From Chlorobiota bacterium (lineage in GTDB: Bacteria; Bacteroidota; Ignavibacteria; OLB7), in NCBI GenBank assembly GCA_028287785.1, contig JAQBOZ010000010.1, forward strand, positions 1-57,391: a DNA stretch of 57,391 bases, read 5' to 3'. The stretch's first letter is position 1. Every line of letters begins with the position of its first letter. Under the pieces are notes generated by a model. It saw nothing but the letters and a program-made list of their open reading frames with translations. It was not told the DNA's origin and did not search any database. Shown piece after piece: positions 5,039 through 22,205 of this stretch. Both the position numbers and the translations under genes were made by a program.

Positions 5039-5118
5039 TGCGTGGGGCGATGCCCCGCGCAGCAGGGATTGCGCCCCGTTGGGGCTTGAGGAAGTTATTC
5101 TAAGCCCCAACGGGGCGT
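5039..5118. repeat. Composite palindromic intergenic element
   Basis: Two palindromes in tandem. The first (5039-5061) has arms TGCGTGGGGC and GCCCCGCGCA around GAT. The second has arms GCCCCGTTGGGGCTT (5073-5087) and AAGCCCCAACGGGGC (5102-5116), perfectly complementary, around a 14-nt loop. The same composite, in the opposite orientation, is found at 19379-19469. It lies between convergent genes and might also terminate transcription. Confidence 0.75.
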
Positions 5119-14738: not shown

Positions 14739-16298
14739 TCAATCCGCCGGCGTCTTGAGCAATTCCTCGATCGCGTCCTGGAGCTTCCTGACGCTGACCG
14801 GCTTCGTCAGATGGTTGGAAAATCCCGCCTCGCGGCTTCGGCGGATATCCTCCTCCATTCCGTAGCCGCTCAGCGCTATCGCCCTGACCGGCCGCCCGTC
14901 GGCGCTCAGCGTTCTGATAAGATCCAGGCCGCTTCCATCAGGCAGGCCGATATCGCTGATCACCAGATCGAACGTCTCATGGCGCGCCACTTCAAACGCG
15001 GCGCGGAGGCTGCCGGCGACCGTCACAGCATAGCCATGACGCTGGAGAAGGATCTGGATCACCCGTCGCGTATCCTCGTGATCCTCCACCAGCAGAATCC
15101 GCATGCCGTGATATCCGTCGCCGTTTGCGTGATGCGCCAGGCCATCCATCATCGCCGGCGCGGATGGCCTGATGGTATCCAGCTCTAGCGTGAAGATCGA
15201 GCCGCGATCCCGGCCATCGCTCTCGGCGCCCAGGGCGCCGCCATGCAGATCCACCAGCACCTTGCTGATGGCAAGACCCAGCCCCATGCCGCCGAACCGG
15301 TGGGAGTCATTGTGTTCCCCCTGCTCGAACGCGTTGAAGATCTTCGGCAGGCTTTTCGACTCGATGCCGACGCCATCATCGCAGATCTGCACGCGGATTC
15401 TTCCGCCGGCACCGATCGGGTTGATGGTGCGGACGATGATGTTTCCCCCGTGGCTGGTGAACTTCACCGCGTTGCGGATCAGGTTCCAGAGCACCTGCTG
15501 AAGCCTTGCGGCATCGGCGCGGACGTGATGACGCGCGGCCCGCAGATCGAGCGCCACGTTGATCTCCTTCTCGCCGATATCCGCGCCGCAGTTCTCCAGC
15601 ACGTGTCCTATCACCCCGTGGACATCCACATCCTGAAGATTGAGCTGGAGCTTGCCGTTTCCAACGCGGCTCAGATCCAGCAGATCATCGATCAGCCGTG
15701 CCTCCAGCTCCACGTTCCGGCGGATGATCTCGATCAGCAGACGGGTTTCGTCGGAGATATCATCCTGCGACTCGATGGCGTAGACGCTGGCGAGGACCGG
15801 CGTCAGCGGCGTGCGAAGCTCGTGACTGAGCACGGCGAGAAACTGATCCTTGGCGCGGTTTGCCGCCTCGGCGATATCTCTGGCCCGTTCCAGCTCCGCC
15901 TGCGCCTGCCTCCGTTCGGCACGTTCGGCCGCCTCCCGGAGCGCCCGCCGCACCGATGGGACCAGCCGCTCCATTCGCTGCTTCACCACATAATCGGTTG
16001 CGCCGCTCTTCAGCGTCTCGATGGCAAGCTCCTCCCCCAGCGTGCCGGATGCGAAGATAAAGGGCGTCGATGGCGATATCTCCTTCGCGATCCCGAGCGC
16101 CGAAATGCCGTCGAATGCGGGGAGCGCGTAATCGGCAAGGATCAGATCGAACTCCCCGCCCTGAAGCGCGCCCCGGAAATCATCAGCGGTTTCCACGCGC
16201 CTGATGTCGCACGGGATATCTCCGTCGGCAAGGGTTGTTGCAATCAGCTCCGCATCGAGCGGACTATCCTCCAGATGGAGGATGCGAAGTGCGTTCAT
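14739..16298 (-). CDS. Hybrid histidine kinase REC-HisKA-HATPase-REC
   Basis: A 519-residue soluble hybrid kinase. Domains: receiver 1 (about 5-120; phosphoacceptor Asp in DLILADYALP, Lys in DYVVKQ), a short coiled coil, HisKA with His in FLAVLSHELRTPL, HATPase (NLIRNAVKF, DDGVGI, FGGMGLGLA) and receiver 2 (about 395-515; DLVISDIGLP, HLTKP). There is no membrane segment or DNA-binding domain. The first receiver likely takes the signal and the second passes phosphate on. The ATG at 16298 is preferred over the GTG seven codons earlier because GGTGA precedes it. It follows the Rcp1-type regulator, separated by a strong nested hairpin. Confidence 0.9.
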   Translation of the reverse strand: MNALRILHLEDSPLDAELIATTLADGDIPCDIRRVETADDFRGALQGGEFDLILADYALPAFDGISALGIAKEISPSTPFIFASGTLGEELAIETLKSGATDYVVKQRMERLVPSVRRALREAAERAERRQAQAELERARDIAEAANRAKDQFLAVLSHELRTPLTPVLASVYAIESQDDISDETRLLIEIIRRNVELEARLIDDLLDLSRVGNGKLQLNLQDVDVHGVIGHVLENCGADIGEKEINVALDLRAARHHVRADAARLQQVLWNLIRNAVKFTSHGGNIIVRTINPIGAGGRIRVQICDDGVGIESKSLPKIFNAFEQGEHNDSHRFGGMGLGLAISKVLVDLHGGALGAESDGRDRGSIFTLELDTIRPSAPAMMDGLAHHANGDGYHGMRILLVEDHEDTRRVIQILLQRHGYAVTVAGSLRAAFEVARHETFDLVISDIGLPDGSGLDLIRTLSADGRPVRAIALSGYGMEEDIRRSREAGFSNHLTKPVSVRKLQDAIEELLKTPAD

Positions 16299-16330
16299 AC
16301 TGGTTCTGTCACCGTTCACTGTTATCGTTT

Positions 16331-16370
16331 CGGAGGGAAACGGACGGAAGCCGTCCGGAAATCCCCTCCG
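16331..16370. terminator. Nested hairpin between response regulator and hybrid kinase genes
   Basis: Outer arms CGGAGGG (16331-16337) and CCCTCCG (16364-16370) enclose inner arms CGGACGG (16341-16347) and CCGTCCG (16351-16357) with a 3-nt loop. On the minus strand it lies 58 bases after the response-regulator stop and 32 bases before the kinase ATG. It could be a terminator or attenuator-like leader; there is no T-run. Confidence 0.5.
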
Positions 16371-16428
16371 GGTTTATCATCATCATCCAAAAACTCCTCA
16401 CGCCGGGAACATCGGAGCGCCGGGGGCA

Positions 16429-16881
16429 TCATGGGGGAGGGATCGATCCGGGAGGGGGGTGATTGATCACCGCCCAGAAGAGGCCCAGCTCCTTGATCGC
16501 CGCCACGAACTCGGTGAAATCCACCGGCTTCACCACATATGCGTTCACCCCCAGATTATAGCTCCGCACCAGATCCTGCTCCTCGCGCGAGGAGGTGAGC
16601 ATCACCACCGGCACCGATTTCAGCGCCGCGTCCGCCTTGATCTTCTCGAGCACTTCCAGCCCGTCGATCTTCGGGAGCTTCAGGTCCAGCAGCACCACGG
16701 CCGGCATTCCCGGCGAGCGCATCTTGAAGATCCCCTGGAGATAGAGGTAATCAAGCGCCTCCTCGCCATCGCGGACCACCACGACTTCATTTGCCAGCCT
16801 GTTTTCGGCGAGCGCCGCCAGCATCAGCTCGACGTCGTTCGGATTGTCTTCAACCAGCAGAATCCTTTTTAACTCTGCCAT
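16429..16881 (-). CDS. Rcp1-type single-domain response regulator
   Basis: A 150-residue receiver domain and little else. Conserved residues are present: acidic pair in LLVEDNPNDVELML, phosphoacceptor Asp in VVLLDLKLPKIDGLEVLEKI, Thr/Ser in VVMLTSS, and Lys in AYVVKPVDF. The sequence type, including LPKIDGLEVLEKIK and the late NAYVVKPVDFTEF, is that of Rcp1, the partner of phytochrome-like kinases. There is no output domain, so it probably acts by protein contact or phosphorelay. The start at 16881 has a strong AAGGAGG. The gene lies about 120 bases downstream of the REC-PAS kinase, whose C-terminal catalytic region is of the Cph1-like type, so the two are likely partners. Confidence 0.9.
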   Translation of the reverse strand: MAELKRILLVEDNPNDVELMLAALAENRLANEVVVVRDGEEALDYLYLQGIFKMRSPGMPAVVLLDLKLPKIDGLEVLEKIKADAALKSVPVVMLTSSREEQDLVRSYNLGVNAYVVKPVDFTEFVAAIKELGLFWAVINHPPPGSIPPP

Positions 16882-17000
16882 CCGGCTCCCTCCTTGACGA
16901 TCATGAGATGATGGGCCTCCAGCCCGCGAGTCGATGCCCTTCCAGGGCATGTTGATAAGCATTACGATCCCGTCCGCGCGATCCACCGTGTAAGGTGATC

Positions 17001-19298
17001 TCAGCCATGTTCCGGGAATGTGAAAGAGAACGTCGCCCCCCCGTCGATAATTCCCTCGGCCCAGACCCTTCCGCCATGACGCTGAATAATGCGCTGGACA
17101 TTCGCCAGCCCGATCCCCGTCCCCTCGAATTCCTCCGCGCGATGCAGCCGCTGGAACACCCCGAAGAGCTTCCCGACGTAGCGCATGTCGAACCCCACGC
17201 CGTTATCGCGCACGTGAAAAACATATTCTCCCGCCTCCCGCGCGCAGCCGATCTCGATCCTTGCCGGCGTCCTGCCGCGTGTATACTTCACGGCGTTCGC
17301 GATCAGGTTTTCCAGCGCAAGGCGGAGCATCGAGGCATCTCCCTCAACGGCCGGAAGCGAGCCGATGGACCACTCGATGGCGCGCTGCGAAATCTCCGGC
17401 TCCATATCCGCGATGGCCTCCCGAACCAGCGTCGTCATATCCACCACCTGACGCCGCAGCTCGGTTCTTCCCATTCTGGAGAATGAAAGCAGGTTATCAA
17501 CTAGAGTGCCAGCATATTTCGCGGACTCCGAAATGGTGGAAAGGTAGTGCCGGCTCCGCTCGTCCAGATCGCCTCCGGCGCGTTTGCCGAGGAGATCGGA
17601 GAAGCCGACGATATGCCGGAACGGGGCGCGGAGATCGTGCGAGACGGAGTAGGAAAATGCCTCAAGCTCCTTGTTGGCGGCCTGGAGCTGCGCGGTCCGC
17701 TCCACCACGCGACGCTCAAGATCGCCGTTCAACTGGCGTATCTCCTCCTCCGCCTGCTTCCGCTCGGTGATGTCGCGGAACGCCACGATCACGCCGGTGA
17801 TCCGCTCATCCTCCCGGATCGGCGCAAGCGAGCAGAGGATGGGAAACCGGGAGCCATCCTTCCTGATGAAACGATCCTCGTGATTGCGGATGGCCTCCCC
17901 GGTCCGGGCAACAGCCGCGTGGGGATCTTCATCGGGCCAGGGGGGAGCGGAGATTATCTCCAGCGCCCGCCTGCCCAGCAGCTCATCGTCGCGCCACCCC
18001 AGCATCTCCTCCGCGGCGGGGTTTATATAGGTTATCAGGCCGGCGCCATCCACGGCGTAGAGCCCCTCGGCAAGATTATCGGCGATGACGTGGGTAAACT
18101 GAAGCTGGTAGCGAAGATTTTCCTCGGCAAGCCGCCGGTTGGTGACATCCATCGTCACCCCGCGCATGCCGATGGGATTTCCGGCCTCGTCACGGATCGC
18201 CACCGAGTGCGATTCCACCCAGATCACCCGCCCGTCCTTCGCGATCCAGCGGAACTGGTTGATCCCCTCGCGATCGCTGGCGAACGTTTCGGTGGCGACG
18301 CGGGCCGCCTCGGCGCGGTCATCCGGGTGGACGATCGTCAGCCAGAAGTCCGGCGTGGCGTGCCATTCCTCCACGGAGTAGCCAAGCATCTGCTCCACGT
18401 GCGCGCTGACGAAATCGATCCAGAGTTCCTCCCCCTCCGTCCTCTTCCACGATTCCCAGACCACGCCGGGGACGTTCGCGATGATGCTCGCAAGCCGTCG
18501 GCTCTGATACTCGATCAGCGCCGAGAGCTGCTCGCTTTCCCGCTCGGCATGCTTTCGTTCTGAAATGTCGCGAATTGCGTGGATGTAATGGAGCCTGCCA
18601 TCGACGTCGAATGTCCTGCCGCTGATCTCCACCGGAAACGCCTCGCCGCTTTTCCTGAGATGCTCGGTCTCGAAGAGCCTTCCCTGAGCCGTGGAGATGC
18701 TCCGCGCGTTTGCCACCGATTCCTCGCGGAGATTCTCCGGCGACAGCGTGCCGACGTGCATCCCGACAAGCTCGCTCTCGGCATAGCCGTACAGATCGAG
18801 CGCGGTGCTGTTGCAGGCATGGATGATGAGGTTCTCGTCCAGGAGGAGCATGCTGTCGTTGGCGGCCGAGAAGACGGTTTTCCAGAGCTGTTCCGACCCC
18901 CGGAGGGCCACCTCCGTCCGCTGGATTCTGAGCATGGACTCCACGCGCGCGCGCAATTCCCGGCTCTGAATCGGCCGGGTGATATAGCCGTCGGCGCCGG
19001 AATCGAGCCCCTCGATCTTTTTCTCCGTGGAGATATCGAGGCTGGAGAGGAGGAGGACGAACGTCCCGGTGAGAGATGGGTTGGCCTTGACGCGGCGGCA
19101 GATCTCCATGCCGGAGATATCGGGAAGGCGGACATCGAGGAGGAGCAGATCGGGCTGTTCCGATTCGGTGATGCGGAGCGCATCGGTTCCCGTGGCGGCC
19201 TCCAGCACCAGATACCCGGCATCGCGGAGCATGCGCGCGACCGCGTAGAGCATCGGGATGTTGTCATCGACTACCAGGATTTTCGGGTTCTCGTTCAT
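17001..19298 (-). CDS. Multi-PAS histidine kinase with N-terminal receiver domain
   Basis: A 765-residue soluble kinase. Order: receiver (about 1-120), PAS (about 130-250, with RLFETEHLRKSGEAFPVEIS), PAS (about 275-395; ends RGVTMDVTNRRLAEENLR), PAS (about 400-515), coiled coil, HisKA with His in FSYSVSHDLRAPFRHI, and HATPase (NLIANAVKYT, DNGVGFDM, GTGIGLANVQ). The catalytic end matches the Cph1-like subgroup that works with Rcp1-type regulators, one of which lies next downstream. In the receiver the phosphoacceptor is kept (LLLLDVRLP), but the conserved Lys is Arg (YITRPI). The upstream TTG start is less likely than the ATG at 19298. PAS ligands cannot be predicted. Confidence 0.9.
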   Translation of the reverse strand: MNENPKILVVDDNIPMLYAVARMLRDAGYLVLEAATGTDALRITESEQPDLLLLDVRLPDISGMEICRRVKANPSLTGTFVLLLSSLDISTEKKIEGLDSGADGYITRPIQSRELRARVESMLRIQRTEVALRGSEQLWKTVFSAANDSMLLLDENLIIHACNSTALDLYGYAESELVGMHVGTLSPENLREESVANARSISTAQGRLFETEHLRKSGEAFPVEISGRTFDVDGRLHYIHAIRDISERKHAERESEQLSALIEYQSRRLASIIANVPGVVWESWKRTEGEELWIDFVSAHVEQMLGYSVEEWHATPDFWLTIVHPDDRAEAARVATETFASDREGINQFRWIAKDGRVIWVESHSVAIRDEAGNPIGMRGVTMDVTNRRLAEENLRYQLQFTHVIADNLAEGLYAVDGAGLITYINPAAEEMLGWRDDELLGRRALEIISAPPWPDEDPHAAVARTGEAIRNHEDRFIRKDGSRFPILCSLAPIREDERITGVIVAFRDITERKQAEEEIRQLNGDLERRVVERTAQLQAANKELEAFSYSVSHDLRAPFRHIVGFSDLLGKRAGGDLDERSRHYLSTISESAKYAGTLVDNLLSFSRMGRTELRRQVVDMTTLVREAIADMEPEISQRAIEWSIGSLPAVEGDASMLRLALENLIANAVKYTRGRTPARIEIGCAREAGEYVFHVRDNGVGFDMRYVGKLFGVFQRLHRAEEFEGTGIGLANVQRIIQRHGGRVWAEGIIDGGATFSFTFPEHG

Positions 19299-19378
19299 CA
19301 AGTCGTTATCTCTGGACCAGGGTGCCTGGGCACAATGTCATGCTCGGGGAGCAAGGGGAACATCATGCAGGAGCCATA

Positions 19379-19469
19379 ACGCTCCGATGGGGCTTGGAGG
19401 AATGTTGCATTATCTTCTTCAAGCCCCGGAGGGGCGCAATATCATGTGCGCGGGGCGATGCCCCGCGCA
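19379..19469. repeat. Composite palindromic element overlapping a kinase 3' end
   Basis: An inverted-orientation copy of the element at 5039-5118. Arms ACGCTCCGATGGGGCT (19379-19394) and AGCCCCGGAGGGGC (19422-19435) surround a loop resembling that of the other copy (GAGGAA, then TTAT). An exact palindrome follows with arms TGCGCGGGGC (19447-19456) and GCCCCGCGCA (19460-19469) around GAT. The last palindrome lies inside the coding region of the histidine kinase at 19442-20671 and encodes its C-terminal residues SARGIAPRT. Confidence 0.75.
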
Positions 19470-20671
19470 CTCATATCAACCGGCAGCACAACCGTGAATG
19501 TCGATCCCGTTCCCGGCGTGCTCTCCACGGTGATTGTTCCGCGATGTCCCCGCACGATCTTCCGGGCTATCGCCAGGCCAAGGCCCGCTCCCCGCTCGCC
19601 GGCCGTGCTCCGGGTGCTTGCGGTCCTGAACGGAAGGAAGAGCTGTTCGAGCTCGCCCGCGGGGATGCCGACCCCTTTATCGGCCACGGCGATCTCCACC
19701 CTCTCCTTATCAACCACCATTCCAATTCGAATGGCGCTGTCCGGATGTGAGAATTTTATGGCGTTGCCGATAAGATTGTTGAACACCTGCTCCAGTTTCG
19801 GCGCGTCCATCATCAGGATCGGGGTCGGACCCTCGGGCTCATCGAATACAAGCGTGATCTTCTTTTTCTCGGCAAAAACGCGGTTGAGCGAAATCGTGCG
19901 CCTGATAATCCGGACAAGATCGTGCGGTTCCAGATCCAGATCGAGCGTCCCGGCCTCGATTTTCACGATATCAAGCAAATCATTGACCAAACTCAGCATG
20001 TAGTGGCTGGTGGTGTGAATCGTCGCCAGGAAGTCCGCCTCCTCCCCCTGAAGTCGATCGGGAAGGGATTCCATCAGGAACTCGCTGTAGATCATGATGG
20101 CGCCCAGCGGGGTGCGGAGATCGTGCGCCGCGATCCCGAGAAACTGATTCTTCTGCTCGTTCAGCCTTGCCAGCTCGGCATTCTTCCGCGCCAGTTCCCG
20201 TTGCGTCGTGGTCAGCTCGTTGTTCAGGCGGGAGAGCTCATCGTAGAGGTGGGCATCGGCGTTCAGGCGGTTGCGACCGGAGGCGACCTCCTTCATGGCG
20301 GTTCGCAGAGCATTGACCTGTTCGTTGTTGATCTGCATCAGATCGTCGTACAGCTCCATGATATCCGCGTGCGACCGCGCGCCCACCACCACGATCGTGC
20401 CGTTGCTGTCGGTCCCCCCGGCGAAATGGAGCGGGACGATCGCGCCGCCGATAGCGCAGTTCAGCGTCCAGTTGAACGCCGCGCCGTGTGTCCTGATCTC
20501 CTCCAGAAAGCTCAGCGCCTTGAGGGTGCTTACCGGGTCCACAGCCGCCGGAAAAAATCGTTCAGCCGCGAACCCGCTTCCCACGCCCAGCTCATCGCGC
20601 ATCATGTTCACTATCCGTCCCTGCGTGTCGCAGAGAAACGCCATGCCCGCCGGTCCCGCCGGGGGCGCCAT
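19442..20671 (-). CDS. Histidine kinase partnered with cobalamin photosensor protein
   Basis: A 409-residue soluble kinase whose ATG overlaps the stop of the cobalamin protein gene (ATGA). Residues about 10-115 look like a PAS-type sensor (AFLCDTQGRIVNMMRDELGV at its start), followed by a coiled coil (ELTTTQRELARKNAELARLN), HisKA with His in FLGIAAHDLRTPL, and HATPase (NLIGNAIKFS, DKGVGIPAGE, GAGLGLAIARK). There is no receiver or output domain, so it must signal to a separate regulator. The nearest candidates are the Rcp1-type regulator and the hybrid kinase downstream. Its final residues are encoded by a palindromic repeat, hinting that the repeat inserted at or near the original stop. Confidence 0.9.
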   Translation of the reverse strand: MAPPAGPAGMAFLCDTQGRIVNMMRDELGVGSGFAAERFFPAAVDPVSTLKALSFLEEIRTHGAAFNWTLNCAIGGAIVPLHFAGGTDSNGTIVVVGARSHADIMELYDDLMQINNEQVNALRTAMKEVASGRNRLNADAHLYDELSRLNNELTTTQRELARKNAELARLNEQKNQFLGIAAHDLRTPLGAIMIYSEFLMESLPDRLQGEEADFLATIHTTSHYMLSLVNDLLDIVKIEAGTLDLDLEPHDLVRIIRRTISLNRVFAEKKKITLVFDEPEGPTPILMMDAPKLEQVFNNLIGNAIKFSHPDSAIRIGMVVDKERVEIAVADKGVGIPAGELEQLFLPFRTASTRSTAGERGAGLGLAIARKIVRGHRGTITVESTPGTGSTFTVVLPVDMSARGIAPRT

Positions 20672-21762
20672 CAGGAGCCAACCCCCGCCACCATCCGCCT
20701 GGCGATAGTGACCGATTCGCGCGCGTCGTGGGCGCATGCGTCGGCGCCGATCTGCCGCCAAAGTTCGGGCTCCACGTTGAACGGATATCCTCCCACCATG
20801 ATCTTCACATTGCGGCACCGGTCATCCCCCCGTAGCGTCGCGATCAACCCGGTCACTTCAGTCACGTGAAAGGTGATGGTGGCGGAAACCGCGAGGAGGG
20901 AGGCGCCGCTGGAGACCACCATCTCAACGATGCTCCGTATCGGCGTGCTGGCTCCCAGGTAGACCGTATCCCAGCCATCCATCTCGAAGAAGTCCGCGAT
21001 CATCCGGACGCCGATCTCGTGCAGATCGCCACCGATGCAGGCCGCCACCATCGTAAGCCCGTTCCGTTCGGTGGAGAAGATGCGCGGGTAGAGCTGCGAC
21101 ATGATCAACTGCGTGGCGGCGGTGCAATAGTGTTCCTGCGCCACGGTCAGCCGGTTCATCTGCCAGAGCCGCCCTATCTGGTGCTGCGTCTGCTGGAAGA
21201 CATCCAGGTAGATATCCTGGATATTGGTGCCGCTCTCCACCGCCTCCAGTACCAGCCGGCTGGCCTCGCGACGATCGGCGCGGAGGAGGGCGCTCAGGTA
21301 ATCCCGGGCAAGCTCCGCCAGTGGCCCGATTCCGGTGATCGCCGTCTCCAGTTCCGAGGGGAACCCCGGCAGCCGTTCCAGCCCCCGCTCGACATATCCG
21401 ACGGCCACCTCCGCCATCTCCGCGGGAAGATCCTCGTGAAGCGCATCGCGAAGGAATCCGAGATTGGCGACCAGATCCTTCGCCGGAATCCCGCGTCCCG
21501 CCAGCATCACCTTGACCCATGCAACGTAATCGGTGAAGAGGTTGGGGAGCGATGTTGCGATCGATTCGGCCAGATATGCCAGATGAAATCCGGCGTCCTC
21601 GCGGCAATGCCGGCGGCCGGTAGCACCATAGCGTATCGCCAGCTCCGGATAGGCGCTGTACTGGCGGTCGGTAATCGTATCGGCCAGCTCCTCGCGGAGC
21701 GACCCGATCATCGCGGCGACTGTCTTGTTGAAATTCTCGCCCACGCTGCTTTCCCGGTTCAT
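20671..21762 (-). CDS. Cobalamin-binding protein with CarH-type photosensor motif
   Basis: A 363-residue soluble protein. Residues about 1-130 are a helical domain I cannot name. About 140-225 is the four-helix B12-binding cap and about 233-360 the Rossmann-like B12-binding domain with D-x-H-x-x-G (DLHEIG; axial-ligand candidate His248) and the later IMVGGYPF. The cap carries Trp200-x9-Glu210-His211 (W, QMNRLTVAQ, EH), which is the W-x9-EH signature of AdoCbl photoreceptors of the CarH/LitR class. It has no MerR DNA-binding domain. It is coupled by 4-base ATGA overlaps to the ABM gene before it and the histidine kinase after it, so the light or cobalamin signal probably passes to the kinase. 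Cobalamin sensing without light is an alternative. Confidence 0.88.
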   Translation of the reverse strand: MNRESSVGENFNKTVAAMIGSLREELADTITDRQYSAYPELAIRYGATGRRHCREDAGFHLAYLAESIATSLPNLFTDYVAWVKVMLAGRGIPAKDLVANLGFLRDALHEDLPAEMAEVAVGYVERGLERLPGFPSELETAITGIGPLAELARDYLSALLRADRREASRLVLEAVESGTNIQDIYLDVFQQTQHQIGRLWQMNRLTVAQEHYCTAATQLIMSQLYPRIFSTERNGLTMVAACIGGDLHEIGVRMIADFFEMDGWDTVYLGASTPIRSIVEMVVSSGASLLAVSATITFHVTEVTGLIATLRGDDRCRNVKIMVGGYPFNVEPELWRQIGADACAHDARESVTIARRMVAGVGS

Positions 21763-22205
21763 GAACAGATAAACTCGAACACTCTGATCTCGGTTCCCCG
21801 AGGGTCCAGCCGCAATCCCTTCGGGATGCCGGCATGCGACCCCTTATATGTATGGCCGCCGTGCCACGTCCGATAGCTGGCCTCATCGGTCCAGTAGGTG
21901 ATAAGCCAGATTTCATCAGGGTTATCCATCGGGCTGATCACATCCAGCCTGACAAATCCCGGCACATCATCCACCAGACGAGGTCGGTCGATAAACGCCT
22001 GCTTTACCTCGGCAACCATGCCATTTGCCACGACAAATCTGCTGAGCGCCACAAATCCTCCAGCTCCGGTCGCCGGAATATCCCGCGTTTCCGGCGCGGC
22101 GCCGGCCGCATGACGGCAGGGAAGAGTTGCGGGCTGCGAGCGATGACTGTCTTCTTCGAGAGGAGTATGCACCATGACCTTCATTCCATAACCATTGATG
22201 CCCAT
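21759..22205 (-). CDS. ABM-domain (heme-oxygenase/monooxygenase-like) protein
   Basis: A 148-residue protein whose last 100 residues form an antibiotic-biosynthesis-monooxygenase (ABM) ferredoxin-like fold: FVALSRFVVANGMVAEVKQA, PGFVRLDVISPMDNPDEIWL and YWTDEASYRTWHGG. The family includes IsdG-type heme-degrading enzymes and cofactor-free monooxygenases; Trp and His residues typical of the group are present, but the substrate is not evident. About 48 N-terminal residues have no homology that I recognise, so the true start may be inside (ATGs at 22205, 22184 and 22175). The TGA overlaps the ATG of the cobalamin protein gene, making this the first gene of a coupled three-gene operon. Confidence 0.8.
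   Translation of the reverse strand: MGINGYGMKVMVHTPLEEDSHRSQPATLPCRHAAGAAPETRDIPATGAGGFVALSRFVVANGMVAEVKQAFIDRPRLVDDVPGFVRLDVISPMDNPDEIWLITYWTDEASYRTWHGGHTYKGSHAGIPKGLRLDPRGTEIRVFEFICS

Follow-up and report, generated by a model that had tools for sequence, protein, structure and literature searches.

A photocobilin-like B12 sensor gene coupled to histidine kinase and ABM-domain genes: a candidate light-responsive two-component system in a Chlorobiota genome

Three coupled genes on the minus strand of the window, by which we mean the whole 57,391-nucleotide stretch of Chlorobiota bacterium DNA analysed here (contig JAQBOZ010000010.1), encode an ABM-domain protein, a B12 protein and a histidine kinase (sequence and Pfam). 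We judge the chances to be even that, taken as a whole, they constitute a light-responsive two-component system in which the B12 protein, a photocobilin, acts on the kinase and the ABM protein provides or handles its bilin. Photocobilins require a linear tetrapyrrole, and the ABM link suggests where the sensor gets this second pigment. The sensor type itself is already known; what appears to be new is its tight link to an ABM gene, kept across about seven phyla.

That the locus holds three minus-strand genes had been read from the sequence in a first-pass annotation, and the open reading frames and their Pfam domains bear this out (Table 1). The two ATGA overlaps described there reduce to one: the ABM and sensor genes are indeed joined by ATGA, whereas the sensor stop and kinase start meet in TGATG and share a single nucleotide. 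We placed the kinase start at 20671; the longest-ORF start would be 20818. The ABM start is uncertain, because residues 1–47 are unconserved and modelled with low confidence; the conserved part of the protein begins at about residue 50. A promoter and terminator scan yielded nothing better than shuffled sequences did.

Table 1. Coordinates of the trio, its domains and motifs, and candidate relay genes downstream
Feature	Positions	Strand	Basis and remarks
ABM-domain protein	21759..22205	minus	148 aa as read; PF03992 E 1e-10; HmuQ/IsdG-type matches; fold match TT1380, MhuD, IsdI
ATGA overlap, ABM stop / sensor start	21759..21762	minus	sequence
Probable photocobilin / photoglobin-B12 sensor, 363 aa	20671..21762	minus	PF02607 and PF02310, motifs, structural match
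Phycobiliprotein-like globin domain, N-terminal (sensor residues 1-137)	21352..21762	minus	profile matches
Bilin motif C53-R-E-D56 (Cys of phycobiliproteins; Asp270 of SasPcob)	21595..21606	minus	alignment, profile
Four-helix cap and Rossmann B12 domain (sensor residues 146-360)	20683..21327	minus	Pfam, structure match, GxxW/EH/GxxH/GxxxP
W200-x9-E210-H211, adenosyl-pocket motif	21130..21165	minus	invariant in 56 relatives
TGATG 1-nt overlap, sensor stop / kinase start	20671	minus	sequence
Sensor-coupled histidine kinase, 409 aa, without receiver	19442..20671	minus	HisKA 173-241, HATPase_c 289-399 (Pfam)
PAS-like N-terminal domain of kinase; likely contact site	20357..20671	minus	conserved in sensor-adjacent kinases; no Pfam match of its own
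REC-PAS-PAS-PAS-histidine kinase, candidate downstream relay partner	17001..19301	minus	Pfam
CheY-like response regulator, candidate downstream relay partner	16429..16986	minus	Pfam

The motifs W200-x9-E210-H211 and D246-L-H248-E-I-G251 of the middle protein lie where the first-pass annotation had located them. Alignment revealed W200, E210, H211 and H248 to be invariant in 56 relatives, so the motif is not due to chance. The published signature of photosensor B12 domains (GxxW, EH, GxxH and GxxxP; PMC11796333) is complete, with its elements at residues 197, 210, 245 and 270, respectively. The top structural match of the predicted structure (pLDDT 95.5) is 8j2w (Z 27.2, rmsd 1.7 Å over 208 residues). 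In a sequence comparison with solved structures, the photocobilins 8j2w, 8j2x and 8j2y come first (E 7e-25 to 4e-26, as compared to ~2e-5 for CarH), and the four invariant residues align with W61, E71, H72 and H108 of SasPcob (PMC10979010).

The same motif had been taken earlier as the mark of a CarH/LitR receptor. With that family (TtCarH, 5C8D-F) the sensor does share the four-helix cap and Rossmann B12 domain, W-x9-EH and the lower-ligand His. This framing is not supported, however: firstly, CarH, on which a superposition had been proposed, fits the model less well (Z 20.6) than 8j2w does; secondly, a bilin-type globin is added; thirdly, Gln201 replaces the second His of CarH, and a CarH-type bis-His light state is therefore not expected. 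SasPcob likewise has Gln at this position (PMC11796333). Unlike CarH, the sensor has a coupled kinase gene and no MerR DNA-binding domain; the latter had been correctly noted, since Pfam shows B12 domains only and the N-terminus is a globin. The N-terminal globin and the better photocobilin match together rule out a truncated CarH-like receptor.

We also weighed the reading that the B12 protein is no photoreceptor, and instead senses redox state or cobalamin availability or serves as a corrinoid methyl carrier. Methyl-carrier B12 domains share the fold (3ezx, Z 24 in structure comparison), and the top partial NCBIfam matches are corrinoid carriers. By contrast, the residues making up the adenosyl pocket of photoreceptors are invariant here, photocobilins are the best matches and no methyltransferase gene adjoins. 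The methyl carrier can thus be rejected, and we regard the non-photoreceptor reading as a whole as highly improbable. These data identify the middle protein, with high confidence, as a photocobilin or photoglobin-B12 sensor.

Residues 1–137, left unread in the first-pass annotation, form a phycobiliprotein-like globin, a domain assigned by profile and not by fold because the VIA-align match of the whole sensor model spanned residues 146–362 only. A profile of 53 such N-terminal domains matches allophycocyanin (E 6e-8) and the biliverdin domain of 8j2w (E 4e-7). Taken singly, 37 of the 53 match PF00502 (Phycobilisome), the window's own domain not being among them, and a second local match in a structure-sequence search paired the sensor N-terminus with the C-terminal biliverdin domain of a photocobilin. 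In the profile alignment with allophycocyanin, C53 falls on the attachment Cys of phycobiliproteins; aligning the sensor with 8j2w places D56 and W82 on Asp270 and Trp296, through which SasPcob contacts biliverdin (PMC10979010). We consider it fairly likely that the sensor protein binds a bilin.

A different reading is that the sensor uses AdoCbl alone, its globin being a structural remnant without bilin in this organism, and that green light or AdoCbl status is the input to the system. It would suit a host that has no canonical haem oxygenase and the many anaerobe relatives that lack Cys53 and ABM; moreover, AbDPcob, a fused photocobilin, is light-regulated despite its poor binding of biliverdin (PMC10979010). 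The window sensor, however, retains both C53 and D56, and Cys53 coincides with ABM linkage, which leaves the AdoCbl-only reading quite unlikely.

In joining a photosensor-signature B12 domain to a bilin-type globin, the window sensor resembles the photocobilins SasPcob and AbDPcob (PDB 8J2W, 8J2X, 8J2Y; PMC10979010). It differs from both in having its globin at the N-terminus and in being paired with a kinase gene and an upstream ABM gene, and from SasPcob in carrying Cys rather than Thr in the bilin motif. A C-terminal B12 domain has also been published for a group of predicted photocobilins (PMC10979010). Photoglobin-B12 (Schneider et al., 2022), so far as PMC10151467 and PMC10979010 relate it, is a globin-B12 fusion tied to prokaryotic signalling, and photoglobins have a related CXQD bilin motif as given in PMC10151467. 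The first-pass annotation had called the trio unfamiliar. This stands for the ABM partner, which is absent from the literature searched, but not for the rest, photoglobin-B12 with signalling domains having been published. In that literature, which lies outside Schneider et al. (2022), we found no mention of a dedicated ABM partner with an Asn-to-Ser replacement.

The kinase has both the HisKA and the HATPase_c domain of class I sensor histidine kinases and, in agreement with the earlier reading, no receiver, these being its only Pfam domains. A kinase gene lies directly 3' of the sensor gene in 57 of 62 scanned loci, and most of the kinases adjoining the sensor have in common a PAS-like N-terminal domain together with an INNEQxNxLR helix. 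A Verrucomicrobiales genome (L010, 3452–7297 and 7980–10580) contains two photocobilin fusions in divergent orientation: one is a single 1281-aa protein of the order sensor-PAS-kinase-REC-REC-Hpt, and the other is a sensor with PAS-HATPase. The sensor-kinase fusion directly supports coupling of sensor to kinase. In vitro, the stand-alone SasPcob acts on an enzyme in trans (PMC10979010). Gene order and fusion thus uphold the earlier proposal that an AdoCbl photosensor domain feeds a kinase instead of DNA, and the kinase is in all likelihood the sensor's partner. Relatives seldom keep a receiver gene adjacent, with one adjoining the 3' side of the kinase gene in only 11 of the 57 loci. In the window, the trio is followed on the same strand (14739–19301) by genes for a REC-PAS-PAS-PAS-kinase, a CheY-like regulator and a REC-kinase-REC protein (Pfam); this cluster is possibly the trio's phosphorelay.

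Relatives belonging to the Acidobacteriota, Bacteroidota, Balneolota, Verrucomicrobiota, Planctomycetota and Pseudomonadota carry the ABM gene immediately 5' of the sensor gene, and a divergent form occupies the same position in relatives among the Bacillota, so that the pairing spans about seven phyla. Conservation of gene order in relatives had been set beforehand as a point on which the first-pass proposal could fail, and the order is conserved. Strong matches to this ABM subfamily (E<1e-44, the next match being 8e-14) were found in only five of 395 genomes from the window's phylum, each directly upstream of a sensor gene. This five-of-five specificity rules out chance adjacency and marks ABM as a dedicated partner of the sensor. 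Cys53 occurs in 17 of 21 ABM-linked sensors and in 9 of 55 unlinked ones (Fisher 2.6e-7), an association that follows clades and is suggestive only, since the tree-based test, with four phylogenetically independent pairs on supported branches, is powerless. Several Cys-bearing sensors have no linked ABM. Genome searches did not find the sensor in the window's own genus or family, which suggests that it was acquired by horizontal transfer. One genome that carries the class label of the window (L112) and an Ignavibacteriales MAG (L033) have identical sensors, which makes that class the probable origin of the window.

The ABM protein has a dimeric alpha+beta barrel domain (PF03992 and fold match; model pLDDT 73, modest overall) and shares fold, Trp and axial His with IsdG, HmuQ and MhuD. 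It keeps Trp114 and axial His124 of the haem-degrading ABMs, but Ser55 occupies the position of the catalytic Asn and a distinct SHxxIPKGLKL motif is present; unlike those enzymes, its subfamily is found, in the sampled phylum, beside the sensor gene only. IsdG-family enzymes are defined by Asn-Trp-His, and Asn-to-Ala mutants of relatives have lost or reduced activity (PMC5557675, PMC6018153). The replacement of Asn by Ser is a feature of sensor-linked ABMs, whereas Asn is retained in the four background ABMs nearest to them within the window's phylum. The earlier label of mono-oxygenase or haem-degrading protein is thus sound as to a haem relation by homology and tentative as to catalysis.

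We searched the host genome (95% complete) for sources of haem, AdoCbl and bilin. It carries ferrochelatase, COX1 twice, an AdoCbl-mutase subunit and one ABM gene, with no other; no phytochrome was found, and no canonical haem oxygenase (PF01126), in a search outside which the other haem-degrading families HemS, HugZ and ChuW lie. Ferrochelatase, the COX1 genes and the mutase subunit, together with these absences, fit an aerobe with haem and AdoCbl and no other obvious bilin source. Canonical haem oxygenase is also missing from 43 of the 48 sensor-bearing genomes tested. Its absence from the host points to ABM as bilin maker or carrier. That ABM makes or handles the sensor's bilin seems to us an evenly poised proposition, and the bilin step is the weakest part of the explanation we prefer. 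More tentatively, the Ser-variant IsdG-type ABM may make a bilin, possibly not biliverdin IX-alpha, that is dedicated to a photocobilin signalling through a phosphorelay; this would be a self-contained, haem-oxygenase-independent chromophore route.

The Asn-to-Ser replacement and a set of fusions in Acidobacteriota make a non-enzymatic ABM a serious rival. Under this alternative the photocobilin-kinase system is the same, and ABM serves in signalling or coupling without catalysis, binding haem, bilin or the sensor itself and helping to relay the signal to the output protein. In the fusions, each adjoining a photocobilin gene, ABM is joined to PAS-GGDEF (L153:2505-3803), to a PAS region with a Cys-rich C-terminus, the ABM part being frameshifted (L157:470-1468), or to a receiver-like region (L149:2554-3153), suggesting a structural or sensory role, and the 1:1 genomic pairing with the sensor also favours such a part. 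However, most linked ABMs are single-domain proteins, the Trp and axial His found in haem-degrading ABMs are still present and the host has no canonical haem oxygenase; we hold the non-catalytic alternative to be rather unlikely.

In the preferred reading, where ABM serves the bilin, the B12 domain would bind AdoCbl and the N-terminal globin would bind a bilin at C53/D56. Green light directly, or red light via the bilin, would break the Co-C bond and alter the sensor dimer, which would act in trans on the co-translated kinase, at its PAS-like N-terminal domain; the kinase would then phosphorylate a receiver in another protein, perhaps one of those encoded downstream. With its IsdG/HmuQ/MhuD fold, the ABM protein would most likely make the bilin from haem, or hold and deliver it. 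Where a lineage carries the co-translated ABM, this protein is a concrete candidate for the chromophore step that is otherwise missing. If this is true, an IsdG-type protein serves photoreception rather than iron supply, a role for which we know of no earlier example. The operon would also represent a natural soluble sensor and kinase pair, responsive to green and possibly red light, that could be useful for optogenetics.

Two further observations concern relatives and the locus itself. Heliobacteria and methanogens (L006, L008, L038, L040, L052, L058) keep photocobilin genes, most with an adjoining kinase gene; these photocobilins are without the bilin Cys and without ABM. At the 3' end of the kinase gene lies a perfect GC-rich palindrome, GCGCGGGGCGATGCCCCGCGC (19448–19468; RNA fold z -3.2), which has no U-tract. 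A copy with one mismatch is present at 5040–5060, and the palindrome is possibly a repeated extragenic element.
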